Shown here: positions 31,034 through 64,000 of the stretch, in pieces
Position numbering within the stretch: the first letter of the stretch is position 1
How the letters are laid out: each line of letters starts with the position of its first letter
Source of the DNA: Affinibrenneria salicis
GTDB taxonomy: Bacteria; Pseudomonadota; Gammaproteobacteria; Enterobacterales; Enterobacteriaceae
Assembly: GCF_008710095.1 (NCBI RefSeq)
Contig: NZ_VYKJ01000006.1
Location: 258,318 to 322,317 of the forward strand
Length of the DNA stretch: 64,000 nt
Direction of reading: 5' to 3'
Translations under genes and position numbers: made by a program
The notes under the pieces: model-generated
The model's database searches: none
Told to the model about the DNA's origin: nothing
What the model saw: only the letters and a program-made list of their open reading frames with translations

Positions 31034-32615
31034 ATTCTCTTTTGCTCTGTCCGCCGCGCAGGGGCGCGCATCCCGGTTTTCCCGGGGCGTAAGCGGGCTG
31101 CGCCCAACCGCTTCCAGGGCGTGGAAAGACGCAGGCGGCCGAGTTTTCAGCGCCGGGCTGATTCCGTGAGCGGGGCGGCAACGTCGATCCGTAAATGCGG
31201 ATCACCGGGTGCGGCCGACACTCCCGCCATCTGAAAGATGAAGGGGATAAAAATGATTAAGCGTTACGGGCGGGAGAAGAGGAACGGAAGGTGTGTACTC
31301 GTTATACTTCAAGCTACGGGCGCGTTGGCTCCCCTGTCGCTCGAATGATCTGGAGTAAACGGCGTGGATCTTGTTCCCTTATGCCGCCCGGCGCGGTTTA
31401 CCGGATATTCGGGGGTTATCGTCCATGTGGTCTCCTTGTCAGATGCACTGCGGGCGTAAACGCCGCGCGACGCGATTATCAGTAAGGGGATGCAACAGTC
31501 CGTAAAGGTGGAGTGATGCTGCCCGCCAGAACCGGCAAGCAACAGATCGGAAATGATGAGTCAGCTTGCCCGTGATCGAATGCAAAAATCGACCTGAGTA
31601 TAAAAACCGGGATTGTCCAAAAGGGTCTCCGCTAAGTTGACGAGCCTGAACTATAAAGACGCCATGTCGGCCTGTAAACCCGGTTTCTAAACCCTGGCTA
31701 AACGCCCGGACTGAAAAATTTTCGCCGGCCGCGCAGGGGCCGGCCGTATGTTTTTGCCGCCGCCTATCCTGCGCGGCACTCTCGCGCGGGATTTCCCGGC
31801 ATGAGCCGAATCGTTACGCGCAGGCAACGCAACTGTAAGCAGAAATCTATTATCCGACGTGCGGAATTGAGTGACATCAACGTTTCGGTAACCGGAACAG
31901 GGCAGGATATAGCGCCTGACGCAGTCGCTATAAATTGTCCGGCGAGATAATTATTGCCGATTTTTTATCCGTTAGAACAACAAAAATTAAATAAACAGGG
32001 AAAACGGCGCGGCAAATCATCCAGAATATTATATAAATATAAGTAAAATTTTTATTATCTAATAAAATTAATTTTGGATAGTGTGGCGGTATTTTATTAT
32101 CCTGGCCCATTTTGTCTATCGCTCATTTTGATGGCGCGGCGCTACTGATTACATTAATTAAATACTAACGTAGCGTAACGATTGATAATCATTTATTGGC
32201 TGCGCGAATGTTCCTGGTTTGCTGACATCAACGTTGTTAATACATAATCAAAAACGATTATCAGTCTGTTTTATGAATTTTTTGTTTACCGTATGAAGTT
32301 TTCTTTTCTTATTGAATGTGTAGACAAACAACAATTGAAATAACTCATTATTTTTTAGGGAAAAATAGCTGTTTATTTGTGATTTATCCTATTTGCATTA
32401 TCAGTTTTTTATAGAAAATGCGCTAAAACTCTTGAGTTAATTAGTCGGTATGCCTTAAGATTATTCTCATTTCTTGTGGTTCCTGGATAAGAAAAACTTT
32501 TCATTCACTGAGTTATTTTTCTGACAAGTTGATGACGTCTGGCTTGCTTATGTTTGCCGGGGGTGATCGGTCGTGCGTGGGTGTTTATTTAATATTAAAT
32601 TTTAAGGAATGAAAA
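31034..32615. other. Long intergenic region between mgtA and the flp/tad locus
   Basis: The part next to mgtA (31034-31330) should hold its promoter and leader. On the minus strand one frame there is proline-rich (TPSVPLLPPVTL around 31260-31310), loosely reminiscent of Mg2+-sensing leader peptides, but no start codon is clear. At ~31298-31350 there is a degenerate terminus of the 270-bp repeat family (TATACTTCAAGCTACGGGC then GCGTTGGCT). From ~31900 to 32600 the DNA is AT-rich and should contain the flp promoter. No convincing gene was found; a 60-residue minus-strand frame at 31928-32110 looks spurious. Confidence 0.4.
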
Positions 32616-32804
32616 ATGATGCGTAAATTATTTAAGTCATTGCAGAAGGATGAACGCGGCGTCTCCGCCCTGGAATACGCCATTCTGGCCGGTGTAATTG
32701 TCGTGGTTGTGGTAACCGGGGTTACTGGATTCAAGGACCAAATCAGTTCGCTGTTTACGAATGCCGGTTCATCGATTAGCAAAGCGGTAGAAGCTTCAAA
32801 GTAA
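32616..32804 (+). CDS. flp: Flp-family type IVb pilin
   Basis: A 62-residue prepilin, the major subunit of Flp pili. A short basic leader (MMRKLFKSLQKDERG) precedes the processing site. Cleavage after Gly leaves a mature pilin starting VSALEYAILAGVIVVVVV, with the Glu and Tyr of the G|XXXXEY motif, the hallmark of Flp pilins. It is preceded by AAGGAATG and an AT-rich promoter region. It is followed after 8 bp by its prepilin peptidase, and is the first gene of a 13-gene tad locus. Confidence 0.93.
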   Translation: MMRKLFKSLQKDERGVSALEYAILAGVIVVVVVTGVTGFKDQISSLFTNAGSSISKAVEASK

Positions 32805-32812
32805 AATAATTA

Positions 32813-33334
32813 ATGCCCTTTTTTACGCCCATTATTATTGCGCTGTTAATCGTCCTGTTCGGACTATTAATCCGTGCCGATTTGACCCGGCGTTGTTTAC
32901 CTAATCGCTGGGTGGGCTATTACGCTCTGCTGTTTCCCGCTTACGCCTCGAGTCAGGGGATGAGCGGGGGAGAGTTCGCCGCCCACTGCCTGGTGGGGGC
33001 GCTGGCCTTTCTGTTCCTGCTGCTGCCGTTTTTGCGCGGCGGCGCCGGCGGCGGCGATGTCAAATTGGGCACGGTAGTGATGATGTGGGCGGGGCCGCAT
33101 GCCGCGGCCTCCGTACTGGTGGCGATTGGTCTGGTCGGCGCGCTGATCGGAATAGCTGGCTGGCTGGCGGACCGTTTGACGACTAAGCGGCCGCCGGCCG
33201 CGTCAGCGGCGCGCGCGGAGCAGCCGGGCTTGTCGCCCGGTTACCTTCTGTCGGCCCGGCGCGGGGTGCCCTATGGCGTCGCGCTGGTAGCCGGCGGAAT
33301 AACGGCGCTGCTCAGCCAGGGGCTGTTGTCTTAG
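32813..33334 (+). CDS. tadV: Prepilin peptidase TadV/CpaA (A24 family)
   Basis: A 173-residue membrane aspartic peptidase that cleaves the Flp prepilin leader. The two catalytic Asp are visible: one in the early loop (RADLTRRCLPNRWV) and one in GGGDVKLG. It has the short form lacking the cytoplasmic methyltransferase domain of PilD, as usual in tad loci. Four to five TM segments are present, with a polar insertion at ~125-145. Confidence 0.9.
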   Translation: MPFFTPIIIALLIVLFGLLIRADLTRRCLPNRWVGYYALLFPAYASSQGMSGGEFAAHCLVGALAFLFLLLPFLRGGAGGGDVKLGTVVMMWAGPHAAASVLVAIGLVGALIGIAGWLADRLTTKRPPAASAARAEQPGLSPGYLLSARRGVPYGVALVAGGITALLSQGLLS

Positions 33335-52879: not shown

Positions 52880-53812
52880 TCAGCTAAAAAGGCGCTGGCG
52901 ATTTTGGGTGAGCGCGTGCGCGACATCGGGCAACATTGGGAAAGAGCTTTGACCGCCATATTTCTGAATCGAGCATGAACTAATTTCCGCCGCGAAGGGG
53001 ATCGCTTCCTGCAGTGAGATATCGTTCACCAGACAGTAGGCGATGCCGCCGATAAAAGAGTCTCCGGCTCCTGTGGTATCCACTACATCCGGGCAGAATA
53101 CCGCCGGATAGTGTTGCGCGCCCTCATCACTGGACAGTACCGCGCCTTTCTCGCCCAAAGTAATAATCACCTGACCCCTGACCCGTTTGTGTAATTCAGC
53201 GGCACTGGTGAGCGCGTCATTAACGGATGCAACGGACATTTTGCTCATGAAGCTGGCTTCTGTCTCATTCACGACCAGAAAATCGACCAGGCTCAGCGAC
53301 TGCCTGGAAACTTCTCTTGCTGGCGCGTTATTCAGCAAAATCTTACAGTGATGATGGCTGGCTAATTTGATCGCACGCTCAACCACATGGTCAGGAATTT
53401 CCGACTGCAGTATCACCAGTGGCTGTTCTTTAAATAAAGACTCACTGATATCAGATTCCTCGATCAGATAGTTCGCGCCTTTAATAATCGTGCTGCAGTA
53501 ATCGCCGGATTCAAGAATCTGTACAATACCGATGCCGGAGGTTTTGCCTCGCTGGGTAATGTGCGCTACCGATACATTGCTCCCATCTAACGACTTGATC
53601 AGCGCGCTGCCGTAAATATCGTTTCCAACACAGCCGATCATATTCACATTCAGTCCAAGCTTTGCGCATTGAACGGCCTGATTAGCCCCTTTCCCGCCTG
53701 GCATCAGCAGTAATTCATTACCGGTAAATGTTTCGCCTATTTCCGGCAGCCGGTCTTGCTGGACAAGAATGTCGTAGTTAAGACTGCCAATAACAACAAT
53801 ATCATATTTCAT
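52880..53812 (-). CDS. Ribokinase-family (PfkB) sugar kinase
   Basis: A 310-residue cytosolic kinase. The PfkB N-terminal motif GGKGANQAVQCAKLG is near residue 40 and the C-terminal motif DTTGAGDSFIGG near 245, with the catalytic Asp in GAGD. It is closest in appearance to ribokinases, but a pentulose or other sugar is possible. It is transcribed with the RpiR regulator (11 bp apart) and divergent from the isomerase-transporter pair. Base composition is more AT-rich than the flanking genes. Confidence 0.88.
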   Translation of the reverse strand: MKYDIVVIGSLNYDILVQQDRLPEIGETFTGNELLLMPGGKGANQAVQCAKLGLNVNMIGCVGNDIYGSALIKSLDGSNVSVAHITQRGKTSGIGIVQILESGDYCSTIIKGANYLIEESDISESLFKEQPLVILQSEIPDHVVERAIKLASHHHCKILLNNAPAREVSRQSLSLVDFLVVNETEASFMSKMSVASVNDALTSAAELHKRVRGQVIITLGEKGAVLSSDEGAQHYPAVFCPDVVDTTGAGDSFIGGIAYCLVNDISLQEAIPFAAEISSCSIQKYGGQSSFPMLPDVAHALTQNRQRLFS

Positions 53813-53823
53813 TATTTTGGCCC

Positions 53824-54705
53824 TTAATTGGTGGTTCGCTTTGAAACAACCGCATTTCTGGTGTTGTGTAAACTTGTTTGACTCTTTTTACTGGTTTTAC
53901 TGGCAATAATGGTAAATATGGCATCCAGGATATTGAGATGCACAATTCGAGTTGTCGCATTTTCTCCGGTAATCGGGTTGTTTTTTACCGATGAAATTAC
54001 CGAATGCTTTGCTATCAAACTTAAGGGGCTGTTGGGGTAATTAGTCAGACAAATCGTTTCTGCGCCATTCTCATTTGCGGCCTTTACCATTTGAATAATG
54101 TCAGTGGTCTGGCCGGAGTGTGATATAGCAAGCAGTATATCTCCAGGCCGCATTAGAGATGCCGTCATCAGTTGTTTATGGCTGTCACTAAAAACCGATG
54201 AAAAAATTCCAATCTTGAGTAGCTTATGATTGAAATCATCGCAGATGGACCCTGAACCTCCGCAACCCGCAATGAATATTCGCGTGTTTTCCTGTTTATT
54301 AATAAACAGATAGGCAACAGCCTCGATTACCGCGCTATTCACCACGCTTAACGATTCCTGCAGAGCCAGCACTGAATTCAAAAATGTACTCTCGAGCACT
54401 TTTTCGACGTATTGCTCGGAATCTGGTATGACGGGAATATCTAATACATTTTCCTGACTGTTCACTTGTTTTGCGATGTTTATTTTCAGATCATGGAAAC
54501 CAGTAAATCCTAATTTTTTTGAAACTTTGGTAATACTGGAAACACTGACATTCAGATAGTTAGCAATATCAGTGATACACATCTTTGCTAAGGATTGCGG
54601 GTTATCATCAATAAACCGGGCAATGGATCTTTCTTTCTTTCCAAGTTCGGGGGCCAGTGTGCGAGCCAGCAAAAATATTTCATTACCTTCAAGTCTGTTA
54701 TGCAT
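53824..54705 (-). CDS. RpiR-family regulator (HTH + SIS domain)
   Basis: A 293-residue regulator: N-terminal HTH_6 (KKERSIARFIDDNPQSLAKM...ITDIANYLNVSVSSITKV) and C-terminal SIS sugar-phosphate-binding domain (RIFIAGCGGSGSICDDF...LLAISHSGQTTDIIQMV). It probably senses a phosphorylated intermediate of the cluster. It is divergent from the isomerase gene. The three 19-bp palindromes in between are its likely operators. Confidence 0.9.
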   Translation of the reverse strand: MHNRLEGNEIFLLARTLAPELGKKERSIARFIDDNPQSLAKMCITDIANYLNVSVSSITKVSKKLGFTGFHDLKINIAKQVNSQENVLDIPVIPDSEQYVEKVLESTFLNSVLALQESLSVVNSAVIEAVAYLFINKQENTRIFIAGCGGSGSICDDFNHKLLKIGIFSSVFSDSHKQLMTASLMRPGDILLAISHSGQTTDIIQMVKAANENGAETICLTNYPNSPLSLIAKHSVISSVKNNPITGENATTRIVHLNILDAIFTIIASKTSKKSQTSLHNTRNAVVSKRTTN

Positions 54706-54801
54706 TTTAAGGACTCACTTGAAATTTTATCGGTAAGCTAGCATGATCAATATTCGAAAAGTGTTAACCCGATCACATGCTGTAAAATGTTTTACTTTCT
54801 A

Positions 54802-54909
54802 ATTTTACTTAAAGTAAAATAAATAAAGGTTAATACCTGATTTTATTTTACTTTAGATAAAATTGAGGTGTAATATTTTGATTTTAATATATTTTACTAA
54901 GGGTAAAAT
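54802..54909. promoter_or_regulatory. Three 19-bp operator-like palindromes
   Basis: ATTTTACTTAAAGTAAAAT (54802-54820), ATTTTACTTTAGATAAAAT (54845-54863) and ATTTTACTAAGGGTAAAAT (54891-54909) share ATTTTACT-N5-TAAAAT-type arms. Centres are 43 and 46 bp apart. A related inverted arrangement GTAAAATGTTTTAC lies at 54782-54795. They fill the 321-bp divergent region between the RpiR gene and the isomerase gene and fit RpiR-dimer sites capable of looping. Nothing else was recognised in that gap. Confidence 0.65.
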
Positions 54910-55026
54910 CTTAACCTTTAAAATGCAGTATTGAATTTTATTTTTAGTAGTATTTTCTATTGACCATTTACCTATAAAAGAAATCTCATTATAAATGACA
55001 GGAAATTCAATTGAAGGTGATAAAAA

Positions 55027-55980
55027 ATGAAATTCTCCTCTCGTATTAATTCATTTCGTTCACGCGCTGAACTGTTTGAAGCTAAGAATAAAATGGATAC
55101 TTGTGATCTCATTACCCGAATGGGTAGTGTCGATGGTTTGACACATATTGAGCTTAATTATCCTGAGCACTTTATTGGGCAGAGCAAAGAGCTAATTAAA
55201 CAGACTATTGCTGATAATAATCTGAAGGTCGGTGGTATCGCCCTGCGTTATAACAAGGATTTTATTGACGGTGAATTCACCAACCCAGATGCAACGCTTC
55301 GCAACAAAGCGATTGAAACCACGCTCGAAGCTGCTGAAGTGTGCAAATATCTTGGTGGAAACACCGTAACTTTGTGGTTTGGCTACGATGGCTATGATTA
55401 CCCCTTCCAGCAGGACTACTTCCGTGCATATGAACTGCTGGTCAGTGCGTTGCGGACAGTGACTCAGGCACATCCGGACATGCAATTCAGTTTTGAATAC
55501 AAGCCTTATGAGCCGCGTACCTTTTCCTATATCGGTGATGTCTCATCTACGCTTATGCTGATTGATGATGTCGGTTCGGATAACCTGGGCATTACCCTCG
55601 ACTTCTGCCACATGATCATGAAGAAAGAGAATCCCGCATTCTCGCTATTCCAGTCTGCACGAAAAAATCGCCTGGTCGGTTTTCACCTGAATGATGGCTA
55701 TGGCCACTTCGATGATGGTCTGATGCTGGGATCTGTACACCTGATGCAGACCCTGGAATACATCTATTACGCGAAGCGTGTTAATTTCAGCGGCCTGATT
55801 TATTTCGATACCTTCCCAAGTCGCGAAGATCCCGTAGCGGAATGCGCCCAGAATATTCGCATGTATAAAGCCCTCTCTGACTTTATCGATCGCCTTAGCA
55901 TTACGGAAATCGATCAGATAATCAAAAGCCAGGATGCACTCAAAGTACAGGCCATGCTGATGAAAATGATCGTTGAATAA
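55027..55980 (+). CDS. TIM-barrel sugar phosphate isomerase/epimerase
   Basis: A 317-residue AP_endonuc_2-type TIM barrel. Metal-site residues fit the family pattern: Glu in MQFSFEYKPYEP, Asp/His in LGITLDFCHMIM, His/Asp in VGFHLNDGYGHFDDG and Glu/Asp in the C-terminal strand (GLIYFDTFPSREDP). It probably interconverts a ketose or a sugar acid; xylose isomerase-like and L-rhamnose isomerase-like branches are alternatives. It is the first gene on the plus side of the divergent operators and is followed after 60 bp by the transporter. Confidence 0.85.
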   Translation: MKFSSRINSFRSRAELFEAKNKMDTCDLITRMGSVDGLTHIELNYPEHFIGQSKELIKQTIADNNLKVGGIALRYNKDFIDGEFTNPDATLRNKAIETTLEAAEVCKYLGGNTVTLWFGYDGYDYPFQQDYFRAYELLVSALRTVTQAHPDMQFSFEYKPYEPRTFSYIGDVSSTLMLIDDVGSDNLGITLDFCHMIMKKENPAFSLFQSARKNRLVGFHLNDGYGHFDDGLMLGSVHLMQTLEYIYYAKRVNFSGLIYFDTFPSREDPVAECAQNIRMYKALSDFIDRLSITEIDQIIKSQDALKVQAMLMKMIVE

Positions 55981-56040
55981 AAAAAACCATAATCTTGCCT
56001 CGTATTTACTACCAGTCAGTGTCTGACACTGGGGGAAACT

Positions 56041-57276
56041 ATGTTTGATAAAATAGGTTTGCCTAAGAATTTGCTGTGGGGCTATATCGGCCTGACTATT
56101 TTCATGATCGGTGATGGGGTTGAACAAGCGTGGATTTCAATCTGGTTGGTTGAAAAGGGTTTATCCGTTGCCGAAGCCTCCTACCTGATTACCGCTTATG
56201 GCGTGACCGTTACGCTGGCGGCATGGGTTACCGGCGTGCTGGTGCAAACGCTGGGGCCGCGCAAAGTCATGGTTTATGGCCTGATTACCTTCGTCATTGG
56301 CAGCGTAGGTTTTATCGGTATTGGTCTGAAAAGCATGCATATGGCATGGATGCTGCCGTTCTATGCAATTCGAGGCATCGGCTACCCGCTATTTGCCTAC
56401 TCATTCCTGATCTGGATTAACTACAGCACACCGGTAGCGCGTCGATCTACTGCCGTTGGCTGGTTTTGGTTTACTTTCTCTCTGGGTCTGAGCGTTATCG
56501 GTCCGTTCTTCTCATCAATGGCATTACCGATATTGGGTGAAATTCATGTGCTGTGGCTCGGCATGCTGTTTGTCGTCGTTGGGTCTGTTCTGGGTATCTG
56601 GGTGAATCGTGATGTGGTGCCGGCCTCAGAAATCCATCCATTCAGCGCCGGCGAGTTGATAAAGGGAATCACCATCCTGCAGAGACCGGTAATAGCCATG
56701 GGACTGGTTGTGAAATCGGTCAACGGGATTGCCCAGTATGGATTAGCAACCTTCCTGCCCCTGTATTTGATTAGTTATGGCTACAGTAAAACCGAATGGC
56801 TGCATATGTGGTCTGCCGTTTTCCTGGTGGCAATTTTCGCCAATCTTTTCTTTGGTTTCTTTGGCGATAAATTCGGCTGGCGCCCAACTATCATGTGGGT
56901 GGGTGGCTTTGGTTATGCCGCTGTGCTGATTCTGGTTTGGGCGGTGCCTCAGGTACTGGGCCACAACTTTTATGTTATGGCCTTCGTGCTTTGCCTGTGC
57001 GGGATTACCATGGCGGGCTATGTCCCCCTGTCAGCACTATTCCCGATGCTTGCGCCAGACAGTAAAGGGGCTGCAATGTCGGTTCTTAACCTTGGCGCTG
57101 GCCTGGGCGCATTTATCGCCCCCGCGATTACCGCGTTATTCTACTCATCGCTCGGCGCTGGGGGCGTATTGGGCATTTATGCCGGACTCTATGTCCTGAG
57201 TGGTGTACTCACACCTTTCCTTAAAACGCCAGAAGAACTCGATTCGCCTGTTGCAATGAAAGATAAGGCCGCGTGA
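56041..57276 (+). CDS. MFS transporter, RbtT/DalT/CsbX family
   Basis: A 411-residue, 12-helix major facilitator transporter. The N-terminus (LPKNLLWGYIGLTIFMIGDG), the PRKVMVYGL loop and AMSVLNLGAGLGAFIAPAI near residue 345 match the ribitol/D-arabinitol transporters RbtT and DalT as I remember them. It likely imports a pentitol or pentose as proton symporter. It shares the transcript with the isomerase; a hairpin terminator follows. Confidence 0.9.
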   Translation: MFDKIGLPKNLLWGYIGLTIFMIGDGVEQAWISIWLVEKGLSVAEASYLITAYGVTVTLAAWVTGVLVQTLGPRKVMVYGLITFVIGSVGFIGIGLKSMHMAWMLPFYAIRGIGYPLFAYSFLIWINYSTPVARRSTAVGWFWFTFSLGLSVIGPFFSSMALPILGEIHVLWLGMLFVVVGSVLGIWVNRDVVPASEIHPFSAGELIKGITILQRPVIAMGLVVKSVNGIAQYGLATFLPLYLISYGYSKTEWLHMWSAVFLVAIFANLFFGFFGDKFGWRPTIMWVGGFGYAAVLILVWAVPQVLGHNFYVMAFVLCLCGITMAGYVPLSALFPMLAPDSKGAAMSVLNLGAGLGAFIAPAITALFYSSLGAGGVLGIYAGLYVLSGVLTPFLKTPEELDSPVAMKDKAA

Positions 57277-58188: not shown

Positions 58189-58664
58189 CGGACTGAAATA
58201 TACCAGTGATGAAGCGATAAAATAGAATAAAACAACATTGAGCTAAATGGATATAAAGCCAGAAAAACACAGGGAAACACCTTTATTGCGCGTTACAACC
58301 GTACTGCGCGTTATGACTTACTGAGGTGGACTCTATTTATCACTGAATGAGTTACAATCCTTAGCAAAAAATGGCAGTGGTTTTATAGTGAGTAAGGGTC
58401 AAATATGGAATGGATACCACAAAAACGGTATGTGTTACATGCTGTATAACTCGACCTATATCCACCATTAAATAGGGTGGGGCGCGGGTTAACTAAAACT
58501 CAATAAGTTACAAAAAGTCATGGACTGACATATCCATGGAAAACTGCCGTCATTCAATTTATTCAACAAGATCCAGGTGATATAAACTATTTGACATGCA
58601 AAGAATAGGGATGTAATTTTAATTTTAATCGCTAAATGGAACGTAGCATTTTTTAAAAAAAGGG

Positions 58665-61600
58665 ATGTTAAGAATTATGATTAATGAAGAAAATACCCTG
58701 ACTGATGTCAGTTATGTTAACGATTTTATTTTACAATTTATACTACCTAATCGTTTTAATTCCTCAGAAAAAGCAATTGAAAGCGTTGAAATTCAAATAG
58801 ATGAAAAGGTTAATAAAAAGTTATTAAAAATAACAAAAGATAACCCGGTTCTCATAAATGGACTGTTCTGCGCAATGTTCACTGCTTTAGCTCATCGGGT
58901 TGCTAATAGCAGAATGTTGAGTTTCATAACTATAATAAACGAAACATATAGCAAAAAAATTATAAGCGAAGTAAATGATTCTGATATAAAACTAAAAGAA
59001 TACATAACGTATTTAACATCGCACATATATGATAATGATGTGAAATATGATTTAAAAGAAGAACCTGCCAACCTGATTATAAACTATCAAACACATACCA
59101 AAAGAAACATTGATGCTTCAAAAAATGTTGTAATAAATATTACTAAAAATAATGGTTTATTTAGTGCGAGTATAAATTTCAATACGGAAATATTTGATCC
59201 TTATTTAATTTTTGAATATGGGAAAAAATGTGAACAACTTCTGTCTGATTTTACTTGCGATACGAATATTTCTTTGCAGGATATACGACACTTAACTTTA
59301 AAAGAAAAAGATTTTCTTTTAAATGGTTTTAACGCAACAGATAAAGAAATAAAATTAAAAAGCATTGTTCAGCAATTTAAAAAACAAGTAAAAATAAATC
59401 GAACAAAAATAGCTTTGATCGATATTAACCATAATTTGTCATATGAGGAATTAGATCTGCAGTCAGACAAGATTTTTCACATGTTGCAAGATAAGGGATT
59501 GAAGAATGATATTGTTATAGTGATGATGCCGCATAGTATCGATTTAATCGTTACGATTTTGGGTATTATTAAAAGTGGAAATACTTATCTACCATTAGAT
59601 CCTGAAACACCGGATGAAAGGCTAAGGTACATTATTGAAGATAGTAAAGCAAGTTGCCTTATCTCCAATAAAGGACTCCATGAAGTTAATTTATCTAATA
59701 CGAACGATCCCCTTTCTGTGGTTAGTCATTCTGTTGAAAAAAATAAAAATATATACATAATCTACACATCAGGTTCTACCGGAAAACCTAAAGGCGTTGT
59801 TATCGCTGAAAATGAGCTGTTAAATTATACCGATTGGTGTATAGATAAATACATAAACTCAGATGACGATACTTTTGCTCTGTTTACTTCAATCGGTTTT
59901 GATTTGACAGTAACATCAATATTTCCTGCGTTATTATCCGGTTGCAAGATAAAAATATTCGATAGCGCAGAACCTGGAAGATCAATAGCAAATATACTTT
60001 TGGATAAAGATGTGACCATTTTAAAATTGACTCCAGCGCATCTGGAGTTGATTACTAAAATGGATATTTCTCAGTCTAAAATTCATACGTTTATTGTAGG
60101 GGGAGAGGCTCTTGTGAGTCGTTTAGCAAGAGATATAACCGATAAGTTTAATCATAAAGTAAATATTATAAATGAATATGGTCCTACCGAAACCACTGTC
60201 GGATGTATGAATTACAGTTATCGATACGATGAAAATAATTACAGCACGATTCCGATAGGAAAACCAATACAAAACTGCAAAATATATTTATTAGATGAAC
60301 AGCTTGTGCCCGTCTCTATTGGCGCTCCTGGAGAAATCTATATCGGCGGTAAATGTTTGGGAAGAGGGTATTTATATAAAAAAGATTTAACCGATAAGAG
60401 TTATATTAAATCTCCTTTTGAAGATGATCAACTAATATATAAAACCGGAGATTTGGCCAGGTTCACAAACCGCCGGGAGTTAATATTCCTGGACAGAAAA
60501 GATGATCAAGTGATGATCAGGGGTTATCGTGTCGAGTTGGGAGAAATAAAGAATCAAATTCTAAAGATTAATGGCGTTAAGTCAGTTGCTGTAATAAAAG
60601 TGGAGAATAAACATAACGTATATATATATTCCTATATTGTAAAAGAAAACGATATTTCCATAGACACCATTTCTATAAAGAAAGCATTGGCATCTAACTT
60701 GCCCGGTTACATGATTCCAGAAGAAATTTTCTTTGTACAGGAAATACCGTTAACCATTAATGGTAAAATTGATAAACGTAAGCTTCCGATAAGTAAAGAT
60801 AAAGAGATAATTACCCCTTCAGGAAAAAAAGTCAACTCAATAATAGAAAAAGAAATCATTCTTCTTTGGCAGAAAATTTTGAATATTTCGGAAAACATTG
60901 ACGTTAATACCAGCTTTTTCGATGCCGGTGGTCATTCTTTAAAGGTTTATGAGCTTTTTTACAATCTGGATAAAAAGTATAAAATAAAAATTGAAGTTTC
61001 AGGCTTTTATCAAAACCCTACAATATCTTTCATTTGTAATCAGTTGGAAAAACGAGATGTTTATTCTAGGTTCTCTGATTTCGTGTATTTAAAACCAATA
61101 CAGTTTAATAATAGTAATAAAAATGTATTCATTTTCCATGCTTCCGATGGGGATGTGGGGATTTATGCAAAACTGGCTGGTAAGTTATCAAAAGAATATA
61201 ATTATATTGGCGTCAATTATAAATATGATGATAATGACAAATCTATAAATTATCTGGCCAGTAAATATGTTTCAGAAATAAACAAGTTTCAAAGAGAGGG
61301 CGAATATAATTTATTCGGCTGGAGTTTTGGTGGGCTTATTGCTTTAGAGGTGGCTAAAATTCTTGAAGAGGAAAATAAAAAAATAAATTCTCTGACATTA
61401 ATTGACTCTTCATTTAGTCATAAAGAAGATAAATACCATGCATTAATATCATTGTATGAAAATCACAATTTCGATGAATGTATTAAGTTGTTACCACCTG
61501 ATTATGTCAGGTTTATAGATGGTGACGATGACAATCATTATCTTGATAAAATAAAAGAACTTATATTTTTGTTAAAACTAAGGCAAAACTATAAGTTTAA

Positions 61601-61799
61601 TCACACCTTGAAATGTGATCTAATGTACATTTATCAAGAAAGTAATTTTTTCATGGTTTCTGCATTAAGAAAAATAACAACTGGAACATGTTGTTGTTAC
61701 GAGATTAAGGAATCACACTACCAACAATTAAAAAATGATTCATCCATACATTTCATATCGGATAAGTTCAATGTCAATAATGGTAAAAAGGGAGTTTAA
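58665..61799 (+). CDS. Single-module NRPS: partial C, A (predicted Asn), PCP, TE
   Basis: A 1044-residue nonribosomal peptide synthetase. Residues ~20-215 look like the C-terminal half of a condensation domain without HHxxxDG. The A domain (~230-715) has YTSGSTGKPKG (367-377), NEYGPTE (503-509), YKTGDLAR, GYRVELGEI and catalytic Lys701 (INGKIDKRKLP). The carrier domain has phosphopantetheine Ser758 (AGGHSLK). The thioesterase has Ser887 (GWSFGG), Asp914 and His1018. Pocket residues D413, L414, T417, K454, I477, G479, E504, V512, G513, K701 read DLTKIGEVGK, one change from an asparagine code. ATG 58677 is an alternative start. The gene is far more AT-rich than the chromosome around it, so it was probably transferred. 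Confidence 0.92.
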   Translation: MLRIMINEENTLTDVSYVNDFILQFILPNRFNSSEKAIESVEIQIDEKVNKKLLKITKDNPVLINGLFCAMFTALAHRVANSRMLSFITIINETYSKKIISEVNDSDIKLKEYITYLTSHIYDNDVKYDLKEEPANLIINYQTHTKRNIDASKNVVINITKNNGLFSASINFNTEIFDPYLIFEYGKKCEQLLSDFTCDTNISLQDIRHLTLKEKDFLLNGFNATDKEIKLKSIVQQFKKQVKINRTKIALIDINHNLSYEELDLQSDKIFHMLQDKGLKNDIVIVMMPHSIDLIVTILGIIKSGNTYLPLDPETPDERLRYIIEDSKASCLISNKGLHEVNLSNTNDPLSVVSHSVEKNKNIYIIYTSGSTGKPKGVVIAENELLNYTDWCIDKYINSDDDTFALFTSIGFDLTVTSIFPALLSGCKIKIFDSAEPGRSIANILLDKDVTILKLTPAHLELITKMDISQSKIHTFIVGGEALVSRLARDITDKFNHKVNIINEYGPTETTVGCMNYSYRYDENNYSTIPIGKPIQNCKIYLLDEQLVPVSIGAPGEIYIGGKCLGRGYLYKKDLTDKSYIKSPFEDDQLIYKTGDLARFTNRRELIFLDRKDDQVMIRGYRVELGEIKNQILKINGVKSVAVIKVENKHNVYIYSYIVKENDISIDTISIKKALASNLPGYMIPEEIFFVQEIPLTINGKIDKRKLPISKDKEIITPSGKKVNSIIEKEIILLWQKILNISENIDVNTSFFDAGGHSLKVYELFYNLDKKYKIKIEVSGFYQNPTISFICNQLEKRDVYSRFSDFVYLKPIQFNNSNKNVFIFHASDGDVGIYAKLAGKLSKEYNYIGVNYKYDDNDKSINYLASKYVSEINKFQREGEYNLFGWSFGGLIALEVAKILEEENKKINSLTLIDSSFSHKEDKYHALISLYENHNFDECIKLLPPDYVRFIDGDDDNHYLDKIKELIFLLKLRQNYKFNHTLKCDLMYIYQESNFFMVSALRKITTGTCCCYEIKESHYQQLKNDSSIHFISDKFNVNNGKKGV

Positions 61800-61800
61800 T

Positions 61801-62925
61801 ATGTATTGTAAATCATGTGTAATTACGGAAAATTTTCCAGGTGCTGACTTTAACGATAATGGTGAATGTGCGATCTGTCGTAAATACAAAATTGATTTAA
61901 AAAATAAAATTGATACTGACGAAAGTAAGCTATTAGAAAACGAAAATGAACTTAGAGATAAATTAGAGTTATTTAAAAGAAATGGTTCACAATATGACGT
62001 TTTGGTTTGTTTAAGTGGTGGCGTAGATAGTAGCAATACTTTGATTGAAATTGTCAGGAAGTACAACCTGAAACCTCTCTGTTTCCATAATGATCATGGT
62101 TTTGAGGAAGAGGTCGCTACAGAAAACGTAAGAAAACTATGTGCCAGCCTGGGCGTGGATTTAATTATATGGCAAAATGACCATAATTTCATGAAAAAGT
62201 TATGGAAAACTTTTGCAGAATCCAGCTGTAATGATCTTAGCGGTTGCTATGTGTGTGGGAATATCATTTATTTAAATGCAATTCAGATAGCGGATAATTT
62301 CCATATTCCATTGGTTATCAATGGTTATTCAAAAGGGCAGGCGGAAATGATAAACAATAAAGAACGGGGCGCTTTATTGCTTTCAAAAATGGTTAATGTA
62401 ATACACGAAAGTAAAGATGATGTTTTCATCGATCATTTCATGAAGAAATTTGATGTAATGAAAAAACATATGATAATAAAAAATAAGAAAGATTTTGATA
62501 ATCTGGATTTGGCAAATAAAATATATTTATTGCCATTCTACTCTTTTAAATTCAATAAAACCGACAAAGAAATTCTTCGTAAAATTTGTATCAAACAATT
62601 TGACTGGAAGCCATTAAATACCAGTTTCCCAAATCGGACAACAAACTGTAAAATGGTATGGTTAAATACTTTTATAGATTTACAGAAAAATGGCTACACA
62701 ATGTATAATGAGGAATATTCGACGTTAATTCGTAAAGGTGAAATAACGCGTAGTAAGGCAGTCTCAGATTTAGATTTCCAACCGCCAGCAGGAATTATTG
62801 AGAGTCTGGCCGGTGAAATCGGCCTTGATCTTGAAGGTAAACCCTGGGAAAAGGAAAAAACTACCAGTAAAACCCCAGTAAATAAACTTACTCAAAGTGA
62901 TGAGAAGTTTGATTTTGATTTCTAA
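61801..62925 (+). CDS. PP-loop ATP-pyrophosphatase (adenine nucleotide alpha-hydrolase/amidotransferase-like)
   Basis: A 374-residue protein. An N-terminal zinc-ribbon (Cys3/Cys6 and Cys23/Cys26: YCKSC...CAIC) precedes the PP-loop SGGVDSS at 72-78, followed by a second CxxC (Cys149/Cys152, GCYVCG). This layout is typical of WbpG/PseA-type sugar amidotransferases and of thioamide/thiolation ATPases: it would adenylate a carbonyl or amide for attack by ammonia or sulfide. No HisH/HisF-like ammonia supplier lies nearby, which favours a sulfur or other nucleophile (inference). The AAGGGAG site ends 6 bp upstream and the start is 1 bp after the NRPS stop, so the two are coupled. Confidence 0.85.
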   Translation: MYCKSCVITENFPGADFNDNGECAICRKYKIDLKNKIDTDESKLLENENELRDKLELFKRNGSQYDVLVCLSGGVDSSNTLIEIVRKYNLKPLCFHNDHGFEEEVATENVRKLCASLGVDLIIWQNDHNFMKKLWKTFAESSCNDLSGCYVCGNIIYLNAIQIADNFHIPLVINGYSKGQAEMINNKERGALLLSKMVNVIHESKDDVFIDHFMKKFDVMKKHMIIKNKKDFDNLDLANKIYLLPFYSFKFNKTDKEILRKICIKQFDWKPLNTSFPNRTTNCKMVWLNTFIDLQKNGYTMYNEEYSTLIRKGEITRSKAVSDLDFQPPAGIIESLAGEIGLDLEGKPWEKEKTTSKTPVNKLTQSDEKFDFDF

Positions 62926-62939
62926 TTAGGGAGGGGGTT

Positions 62940-63860
62940 ATGAATATTCTTAACAATAAAAAATTATGCGCACATTTATCTTTGTATCTGGCGACGTCTA
63001 TATGGGGTTCTTCATTCATTTTCACTAAGGTTATTTTACTGGCAGATGTTCCTCCCATCACTACTGCTGGATTAAGATTCTTTTTTTCGTTTATTTTATT
63101 GTATATTTATATTGCGATAACTAAAAAAACCTCTTTACGTGTGAGTTTTAGGGAGTTATTGAATTATGCCATTCTGGGGTTTCTGGGCGTAACGATCTTT
63201 TACTGGAGTGAAAATGTTTCTCTTTTATATATTTCTACGGCCAGTTCATCCCTAATTAGAGCATTAGTGCCCGCATTAACACTTATCATGTCATTCTTTG
63301 TCTTTGGTGAAAAAGTAACCTTTACTAAACTTGCTGGGCTCATTATTGCTTTTATTGGTTCAATGGTAATTATACTGGATAGTGCTAATTTTAACTCATT
63401 GATTAACATTAATGTTGGGTATTTATATTCATTTCTGGCTACGGTTACCTTTGCTTTGTATAGTATATTGACTAAGGTCTTAACTAATAATAAAAACCCA
63501 CTTAAAGTTATTTTTTATGGTTTTGTCTTCGGAACATTATTCCTGATACCTCTGGGTATCAGTGAATATTCAAAGTTATATAGTATTACCATTACATTAA
63601 ATCTTATCTTAGGGTTTTTATATTTAATTGTTTTTTGTTCTATCTTATCGTTTTTCTTTTGGTCATGGGGTTTGAAATTCATAGATGCAGGTATCGCCTC
63701 TACCTATATGAATAACGTTCCTCTTGTGACGATGGTGTTAGGGACGCTATTTTTAGGTGAATATCTCAGTGGCTATCTGATAATCGGAGGAATATTTATT
63801 TTGTCAGGTATTTATTTATCGTCTATAAAAAGCAAGGAATCAGAGCGCGCGCCTTGTTGA
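62940..63860 (+). CDS. EamA/DMT-family exporter
   Basis: A 306-residue, ten-helix DMT transporter with two EamA repeats (LYLATSIWGSSFIFTKVI at the start and GYLYSFLATVTFALYSILTK opening the second). It has a strong GGAGGGGG site and lies 14 bp after the PP-loop gene, forming the third gene of the operon. The likely role is export of the pathway product and self-protection (inference). Same low-GC composition as the two genes before it. Confidence 0.88.
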   Translation: MNILNNKKLCAHLSLYLATSIWGSSFIFTKVILLADVPPITTAGLRFFFSFILLYIYIAITKKTSLRVSFRELLNYAILGFLGVTIFYWSENVSLLYISTASSSLIRALVPALTLIMSFFVFGEKVTFTKLAGLIIAFIGSMVIILDSANFNSLININVGYLYSFLATVTFALYSILTKVLTNNKNPLKVIFYGFVFGTLFLIPLGISEYSKLYSITITLNLILGFLYLIVFCSILSFFFWSWGLKFIDAGIASTYMNNVPLVTMVLGTLFLGEYLSGYLIIGGIFILSGIYLSSIKSKESERAPC

Positions 63861-63873
63861 GAGCATCGCAGCC

Positions 63874-64000
63874 TGATCTGTCCTTGATTTAGCGCCCACC
63901 TTGTTTTCAAATCAGTCAACGAAAGCGAGGTCACTATGACGAGACAACAATATACCCCAGAGTTCAAGCGCAGGGCTGTAGCGTTACTGCTCGAAAGCGG
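63874..64000 (+). mobile_element. Left end of an IS3-family insertion sequence (cut by window edge)
   Basis: TGATCTGTCC at 63874 begins like an IS3-family terminal inverted repeat. A 62-bp leader and the start of orfA follow. The remainder lies outside the window. It abuts the EamA gene by only 13 bp. Confidence 0.65.
63936..64000 (+). CDS. IS3-family transposase OrfA, N-terminal fragment
   Basis: Only 21 codons are visible: MTRQQYTPEFKRRAVALLLE..., the typical opening of the HTH_Tnp_1 (OrfA) transposase of the IS3/IS911 family. GCGAGG lies about 6 bp upstream. The gene is truncated by the window end, not by mutation. Confidence 0.8.
   Translation, partial: MTRQQYTPEFKRRAVALLLES

Follow-up and report, generated by a model that had tools for sequence, protein, structure and literature searches.

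Thioamides are rare among nonribosomal peptides. The thioamide synthetase of closthioamide, CtaC from Ruminiclostridium cellulolyticum, has been reconstituted and was called the first NRP thioamide synthetase in 2019 (PMC6772006). Its reaction is thiotemplated and depends on Fe-S and ATP; D77 and S78 and the cluster cysteines C154, C157, and C284 are the reported residues (PMC6772006). CtaC acts on the backbone amides of an acyl-capped peptide, and it turned over neither one other carrier-bound substrate, nor any free substrate tested, nor its normal substrate on a different carrier (PMC6772006). Another source, PMC13185837, deals with ribosomal thioamides and has no bearing on the operon described here.

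The window analyzed here is a 64,000-nucleotide stretch of the Affinibrenneria salicis genome. It contains an operon of three intact genes on the forward strand (58677–63860), encoding a one-module NRPS, a CtaC-like AANH enzyme predicted to be a [4Fe-4S] thioamide synthetase, and an EamA/DMT exporter. The NRPS ORF spans 58665–61799 and, with its first ATG as start, encodes 1044 aa. Starting at position 58677, as in the database copy (P0138), gives 1040 aa, and by eye the ribosome-binding site is better placed for this second ATG. The AANH gene (61801–62925, 374 aa) follows after a gap of 1 bp and the EamA gene (62940–63860, 306 aa) after 14 bp. An earlier sequence-only reading had described three tightly coupled genes with a composition far below the surrounding GC, and both statements were confirmed: the frames are intact with these short gaps, and the GC content is 31.4%, compared with 57.8% for window positions 1–58600. 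Third-position GC is 27–32% in the operon, 41–57% in the four sugar genes adjoining it, and about 79% in three distant sample ORFs. A foreign-looking and probably horizontally acquired operon is part of our best explanation.

The same composition, together with a remnant of an IS3-family transposase upstream (58275–58408, no strand assigned; 73% identical to transposases annotated as IS3 in the plasmid records listed), would also suit a passenger that arrived recently and is silent or decaying, which is compatible with any chemistry. A search with the AANH protein returned its own copy, and the other entries among the best 120 of 168 matches reached no more than 52% identity; this lack of a close relative likewise favors a passenger. 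However, the three reading frames are uninterrupted, the core motifs can be recognized, and the ribosome-binding sites look good, and we consider decay or silence quite unlikely. At the DNA level, there was no match in E. coli genomes and a single 52-base match in plasmids. The ORF start at 63936 may resemble an IS3 OrfA, and searches with that stretch gave no match.

The NRPS protein (58677–61799, forward strand) has Pfam matches to AMP-binding, AMP-binding_C, PP-binding, and Thioesterase. These correspond to an adenylation domain with core and C-terminal subdomain (59376–60767; PF00501 and PF13193), a peptidyl carrier domain (60855–61034; PF00550), and a type I thioesterase (61125–61796; PF00975 over the first part). 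Motifs corresponding to A3, A5, A7, A8, and A10 are present, as are GGHS in the PCP and GWSFG in the TE. The specificity code of the A domain is DLTKIGEVGK, which we take to be an Asn code, and the Asn reading of this domain agrees with it. P0251, named an iturin family synthetase by its source, has the identical code. The domains and the code support the proposal of a one-module NRPS for asparagine. The A-PCP-TE architecture given in the sequence-only reading stands for these three domains, but it omitted half a C domain at the N-terminus, and the order is half-C-A-PCP-TE.

This N-terminal part (the first about 230 residues, 58677–59357) resembles the C-terminal lobe of a condensation domain. 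A profile of the relatives' C domains (492 positions) aligned to it at profile positions 250–292, weakly, and 412–489. HHxxxDG was not found in this part of the protein, and in place of the complete condensation domain of a canonical elongation module there is the C-terminal lobe only. The literal pattern was also not found in the NRPS-AANH fusion proteins P0121–P0135, in which the C domains are complete, so the evidence is the missing first lobe and not the missing pattern.

The AANH protein contains a zinc ribbon (C3, C6, C23, and C26), a PP-loop, and three cysteines predicted to be cluster ligands. In the PP-loop SGGVDS (62014–62031, forward strand), S72, G73, G74, D76, and S77 are invariant in 32 of 32 rows and V75 is nearly so; D76 and S77 are kept in all 148 aligned rows. 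A carbonyl-activating PP-loop enzyme, as had been proposed, is supported; the Pfam matches to PP-loop families were below threshold only. The CxxC of C149 and C152 (62245–62256, forward strand) is present in 145 of the 148 aligned rows, and the remaining three are annotated sugar amidotransferases. The third predicted ligand, C283 (62647–62649, forward strand), is C in 144 rows, a gap in the three sugar enzymes, and Y in one other.

The best family model for the protein was WbuX (TIGR03573), an N-acetyl sugar amidotransferase, at 144.8 bits against a curated cut-off of 203.2, which was not reached. The structure model (pLDDT 85) matched the folds of 8wex, NcsA, and TtuA, and the best PDB match, 8wex, is a sugar amidotransferase. 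The overall fold, N-terminal zinc ribbon, and PP-loop are common to the WbuX type, and the WbuX and 8wex matches favor an amidotransferase that would convert the Asn side chain into an amidine. However, WbuX-type enzymes have a sugar substrate, and the three annotated examples all lack C149, C152, and C283. HisH and HisF2 genes lie near two of these three (at L051 and L053, but not in the stretch shown at L052), whereas no HisH/HisF-type partner is among the three genes of the operon. The kept Fe-S cysteines and the missing partners therefore disfavor the amidine that had been offered as an option, and we regard it as very unlikely; the same cysteines favor the thioamide, the modification that had been named first.

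A nitrile is another conceivable product, if the AANH enzyme dehydrates the side-chain amide of Asn to beta-cyanoalanine or a derivative. The nitrile synthetases ArtA and NitB have a related fold and are reported to activate an amide in an ATP-dependent manner. Their identity to the window enzyme is low (11% in the fold match) and their product contains no sulfur. Such a reaction needs no sulfur ligand, although almost every family member retains the three Fe-S cysteines, and the closest characterized chemistry fitting the motif set is that of CtaC; a nitrile is thus unlikely. The tRNA thiolases NcsA and TtuA differ in having a tRNA substrate, and their sequence similarity to the window AANH is weak.

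CtaC and the window enzyme are both of the AANH superfamily and have the TtcA/TtuA-type [4Fe-4S] motif. D76 and S77 are the counterparts of the PP-loop residues needed for CtaC activity, and C149, C152, and C283 are those of its three cluster ligands; from sequence, we predict these to be the cysteines of [4Fe-4S] sulfur-inserting AANH enzymes. CtaC acts on a carrier-bound substrate and clusters with thiotemplate enzymes, and the window AANH has a PCP in the preceding gene. Motif spacing differs (77/130 in CtaC and 73/134 in the window AANH, with an equal sum, as given by the published CtaC residues), which counts against the analogy. The systems also differ in that CtaC works with NRPS-independent oligo-beta-alanine and backbone amides, whereas the window has one Asn-coded NRPS module with a TE and a predicted side-chain target. 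The assembly genes for NRPS-independent oligo-beta-alanine in the closthioamide cluster are absent from the operon, which holds an NRPS module, an AANH gene, and an exporter gene.

Our main reading, with a rough probability of 0.6, is a minimal thiotemplate operon in which Asn is loaded, a side-chain thioamide is made, and the product is released and exported. The A domain would activate L-Asn and load its own PCP, and the AANH enzyme would adenylate the oxygen of the carrier-bound amide, which would then be replaced by sulfide held on the predicted [4Fe-4S] cluster. Because the side-chain carboxamide is the only amide on Asn-S-PCP, this would give 4-thio-Asn-S-PCP. Release by the TE would most simply yield free L-4-thioasparagine (C4H8N2O2S, calculated [M+H]+ 149.04), although a cyclized or oligomeric form may also arise, and the EamA protein would export the product. 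The best-supported product is accordingly an Asn side-chain thioamide, either 4-thioasparagine or a TE-made derivative. We infer the cluster, the sulfur chemistry and its site, the release form, and the export cargo from genes, motifs, code, homology, and co-occurrence; a role as antimetabolite or metal ligand is likewise presumed. Against this reading stand the backbone specificity of CtaC with its narrow substrate and carrier range (PMC6772006) and the sugar amidotransferase as best fold match. No side-chain thioamidation was found in the literature searched.

The AANH enzyme is joined to an NRPS elsewhere. Among 17 AANH-NRPS fusion proteins, 15 have an Asn-type code (nine DLTKIGEVGK, P0127–P0135, identical to the window code, and six DATKIGEVGK), one has a Gln code in an A domain interrupted by the AANH (P0137), and one is truncated with an unreadable code (P0136). 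P0121–P0126 have the order C-A-PCP-(TE)-AANH, with a TE in five of the six, which matches the gene order of the window; P0121 is the fusion at L016, in a Clostridia genome. In Roseovarius, an AANH homologue 22–26% identical to that of the window is inserted inside an Asn-coded A domain, and the second A domain of the protein has a different code. A candidate second split pair consists of P0246 (half-C-A(Asn)-PCP-TE) and the AANH protein P0023, for which the longest contigs are equally long (34,051). In the window operon, the arrangement is reduced and divided over separate genes. An AU test on membership of the window AANH in the fusion clade gave p 0.084, and no starred set holds the window AANH.

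Counting readable codes only, the AANH-joined module is carboxamide-coded at 6 of 6 loci, and the A domains of other proteins are so in 3 of 22; the other 19 codes, and also DARSASLMTK in a Streptomyces A domain, speak against the side-chain reading. Stand-alone AANH genes follow the carboxamide-code rule less often, and the AANH-joined modules are mostly one clade and hence not independent. Asparagine synthetase genes lie near AANH at 3 of 10 loci with partly inspected neighbors (AsnA as the next gene at L007, asnB with one gene between at L044, and the next gene at L048), but asnB is also near the sugar amidotransferase at L052, so this neighbor carries less weight. A stronger claim, that the three genes make and export free L-4-thioasparagine and that AANH thioamide synthetases joined to or embedded in Asn/Gln adenylation modules generally write side-chain thioamides, is tentative, at somewhat less than even odds.

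The fusions also suggest a backbone thioamide, in which case acyl-Asn or oligomers of Asn would be built by the TE or by a partner NRPS from another locus, with the thioamide placed in the chain. In the scanned fusions the C domain is complete, and those at L001, L007, L009, L013, and L016 come after PKS modules and probably make acyl-Asn, so a backbone amide is an alternative target there, as it is for CtaC in closthioamide (PMC6772006). The window module, however, has half a C domain only and ends in a TE, and the operon itself holds no second module or acyl-activating enzyme. A backbone target would also leave the recurrent choice of Asn or Gln unexplained, and we think it improbable for this operon.

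Thioamidation of carrier-bound substrates by CtaC is already known (PMC6772006), and NRPS-AANH fusions of the same order exist. The statement that the gene combination resembles no described pathway therefore holds in part: a search of the open-access literature, with MIBiG outside it, found no published cluster of NRPS, AANH, and EamA genes. If the side-chain thioamide of our main reading is correct, the product would belong to an unusual type of very small natural product containing sulfur, and the 5.2-kb one-module operon would be about the simplest system for studying sulfur insertion on a carrier-bound amino acid. Free thio-asparagine would represent a type of amino-acid antimetabolite or metal ligand that did not turn up in the literature searched. 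The Asn/Gln rule, if true, would give cryptic clusters a predicted functional group and site, and the A domains interrupted by an AANH, which in one case is circularly permuted, would form a new class of interrupted A domain.

The exporter gene (62940–63860, forward strand), already recognized in the sequence-only reading, is supported by two EamA stretches (PF00892 twice; TIGR00950 below cut-off). The neighborhood is conserved beyond this genome in that the NRPS-AANH pair recurs, but the EamA gene does not: BLAST gave no match at L001–L017 or among the ORFs called at L043–L050 (those at L044 being poorly called), and its membership in a conserved unit is not supported. Downstream of the fusions at L001, L007, and L013 there are other exporters (MatE, MFS).

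The sequence-only reading had reported three tightly coupled genes with a composition far below that of their surroundings, and both points were confirmed. The frames are open and follow the operon order NRPS (58677-61799), AANH, the PP-loop enzyme (61801-62925), and EamA exporter (62940-63860), and the GC content is 31.4%, compared with 57.8% for bases 1-58600 of the window. Third-position GC is 26.8, 29.9, and 31.6% in NRPS, AANH, and EamA, respectively. Three sampled ORFs distant from the operon have about 79%, and the four adjoining sugar genes 41-57%. Beside the operon, genes for an RpiR regulator, a ribokinase, a xylose-isomerase-like protein, and an RbtT/DalT-type transporter (52880-57276) form a locus for a sugar or a pentitol, where the GC content is intermediate at 45%. 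An IS3-family transposase-like piece (58275-58408, 73% similarity) lies upstream of the operon. Among the records with short plasmid matches to the window, 15 of 17 are from enterobacterial genera, nine of them Pantoea, which points to an enterobacterial host. The GC content also falls to 39% at 32001-33000, amid a region of about 55-66%.

Pfam assigned AMP-binding, AMP-binding_C, PP-binding, and Thioesterase domains to the NRPS. Its ten-residue A-domain code, read by alignment, is DLTKIGEVGK, which we take to be an Asn code; P0251, a database protein with the source name iturin family synthetase, carries the same code. Residues 1-230 match condensation domains only over their second half, at positions 412-489 and, weakly, at 250-292 of a 492-position profile. 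The HHxxxDG motif is absent from these residues, but it was likewise not found in literal form in the complete C domains of proteins that fuse AANH to an NRPS module, so the evidence lies in the absence of the first lobe. The half-C start is shared with P0246 and P0239, both Asn-coded A-PCP-TE proteins. Given this start and the A-PCP-TE order, the domain composition suggests a module that loads and releases its substrate on its own rather than one that serves elongation.

CtaC, the thioamide synthetase of closthioamide, is an AANH protein with a TtcA/TtuA-type [4Fe-4S] motif that thioamidates a carrier-bound substrate and requires ATP and sulfide; D77A and S78A abolished its activity, and C154A, C157A, and C284A diminished it (PMC6772006). 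About 75% of 100 CtaC homologues, mostly from anaerobes, were near thiotemplate genes, many near NRPSs (PMC6772006). Residues D76, S77, C149, C152, and C283 of the window AANH are counterparts of these CtaC residues, and the spacings from D to the first C and from the first to the last C (73/134, versus 77/130 in CtaC) have equal sums. Kinship of the window AANH with CtaC is thus suggested by its motif, its fold class, and its context.

By established NRPS logic, the A domain would convert Asn to Asn-AMP and then to Asn-S-PCP. By analogy to CtaC, AANH would adenylate the side-chain amide oxygen and then deliver a cluster-held sulfide; the TE would free the product, and EamA would export it. 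The side chain is the sole amide at hand because the half-C leaves the operon no evident backbone-amide builder. We estimate the probability of side-chain thioamidation of Asn-S-PCP, followed by TE release and EamA export, at about 0.6. There is no sulfur donor among the three genes, and the authors of the CtaC study state the same of the closthioamide cluster (PMC6772006). Nitrile formation has a precedent in ArtA/NitB (PMC13060819), and AANH might form a nitrile from the Asn amide instead, which we consider unlikely. For the favored thioamidation, no paper on thioasparagine or related terms was found in the open-access library searched, which is weak evidence of absence; no such pathway was described among the matches listed (titles and opening lines of abstracts), where only PMC6772006 treats the enzyme type. 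Compared with CtaC, the new points as far as seen are the format of a single Asn module, the side chain as predicted target, and the A domains interrupted by AANH.

A genome scan using the AANH alignment alone found an NRPS-like ORF at 16 of 17 loci, fused to AANH at six of them. A fusion-directed search yielded 17 proteins, including one cut-off sequence (P0136) and 15 with a complete Asn-type code (six DATKIGEVGK, nine DLTKIGEVGK), each of the 15 being 49-88% identical to its nearest fellow fusion. P0121-P0126, a form found at L016 among the loci scanned, have the order C-A-PCP-(TE)-AANH, with the TE detected in five of six; judged by domain order, they are the window operon in a single polypeptide. 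Longer fusions at L001, L007, and L009 have two condensation stretches each, and L017 has one between PCP and AANH.

P0137 carries what is presumably a Gln code in its AANH-holding module, whereas the code of its other module differs. Its AANH (residues 939-1403) lies within the C-terminal subdomain of the Gln-coded A domain and is circularly permuted, with the zinc ribbon after the rest, in one predicted protein where an assembly error is possible. A distant AANH (residues 862-1186) lies likewise inside the C-terminal subdomain of an Asn-coded A domain in a Roseovarius plasmid protein (L043:5424-13469; near copy L045 on a Pseudohalocynthiibacter plasmid), whose second A domain has a code differing from Asn. 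At L008 (7026-15236), two A domains share the code DPENIGHIDK; an insertion of about 570 residues carrying radical SAM and B12-binding domains splits the first, and a methyltransferase appears to split the second.

Carboxamide (Asn or Gln) codes occur in 6/6 AANH-joined modules and 3/22 A domains of other proteins (readable codes, counted over the loci; Fisher p 0.0002, overstated because most fusions are one clade). Left out of this count were L045 and L050, which duplicate L043 and L016, all truncated codes, and, in the joined class, the second A domain of L043. An A domain in the gene adjoining AANH at L044 (DARSASLMTK), missed by the ORF caller, makes the latter count 3/23. Asparagine-forming genes, which lend some weight to the association, were found at three of ten loci with partly inspected neighbors (L001, L007, L009, L012, L013, L016, L043, L044, L047, and L048): AsnA follows the fusion at L007, asnB is separated from AANH by one gene at L044, and an Asn_synthase gene adjoins AANH at L048. 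An asnB is also near one annotated sugar amidotransferase (L052). Stand-alone AANH at L003, L005, L006, L008, L012, and L047 is accompanied by modules with other codes, which counts against a law for all AANH members; at L004 and L046 a Gln code lies in the gene next to AANH, and at L014 an Asn code lies further upstream.

In drawn genomes searched for AANH for rarity and INDEPENDENCE (E below 1e-40), matches numbered 2/369 in the class of G005 (the genomes of L012 and, apparently, L011), 3/391 in that of G003 (itself and two new), and 1/297 in the phylum of G008 (itself). In the tree, the window AANH has a long branch, and no partner of it is well supported; placement within the fusion clade was not rejected (p-AU 0.084). 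P0023, an AANH of a different clade, and P0246 (half-C-A(Asn)-PCP-TE) appear to share a 34,051-base contig, the longest in both records; thus the split Asn form, with NRPS and AANH in separate genes, appears from these sequences to exist at least twice.

At L048 (4498-17786), AANH lies beside genes for an asparagine-synthase-like protein, a radical SAM protein, FMN reductases, and ketosynthases; this locus perhaps converts a polyketide primary amide to a thioamide. A Streptomyces plasmid (L044:6190-12879) carries asnB, A-PCP, an AANH-condensation domain fusion, and an Asp/Glu racemase. At L012 (6981-8996), an E1-E2 (P-type) ATPase gene directly precedes the stand-alone AANH gene and might point to a metal-binding product.
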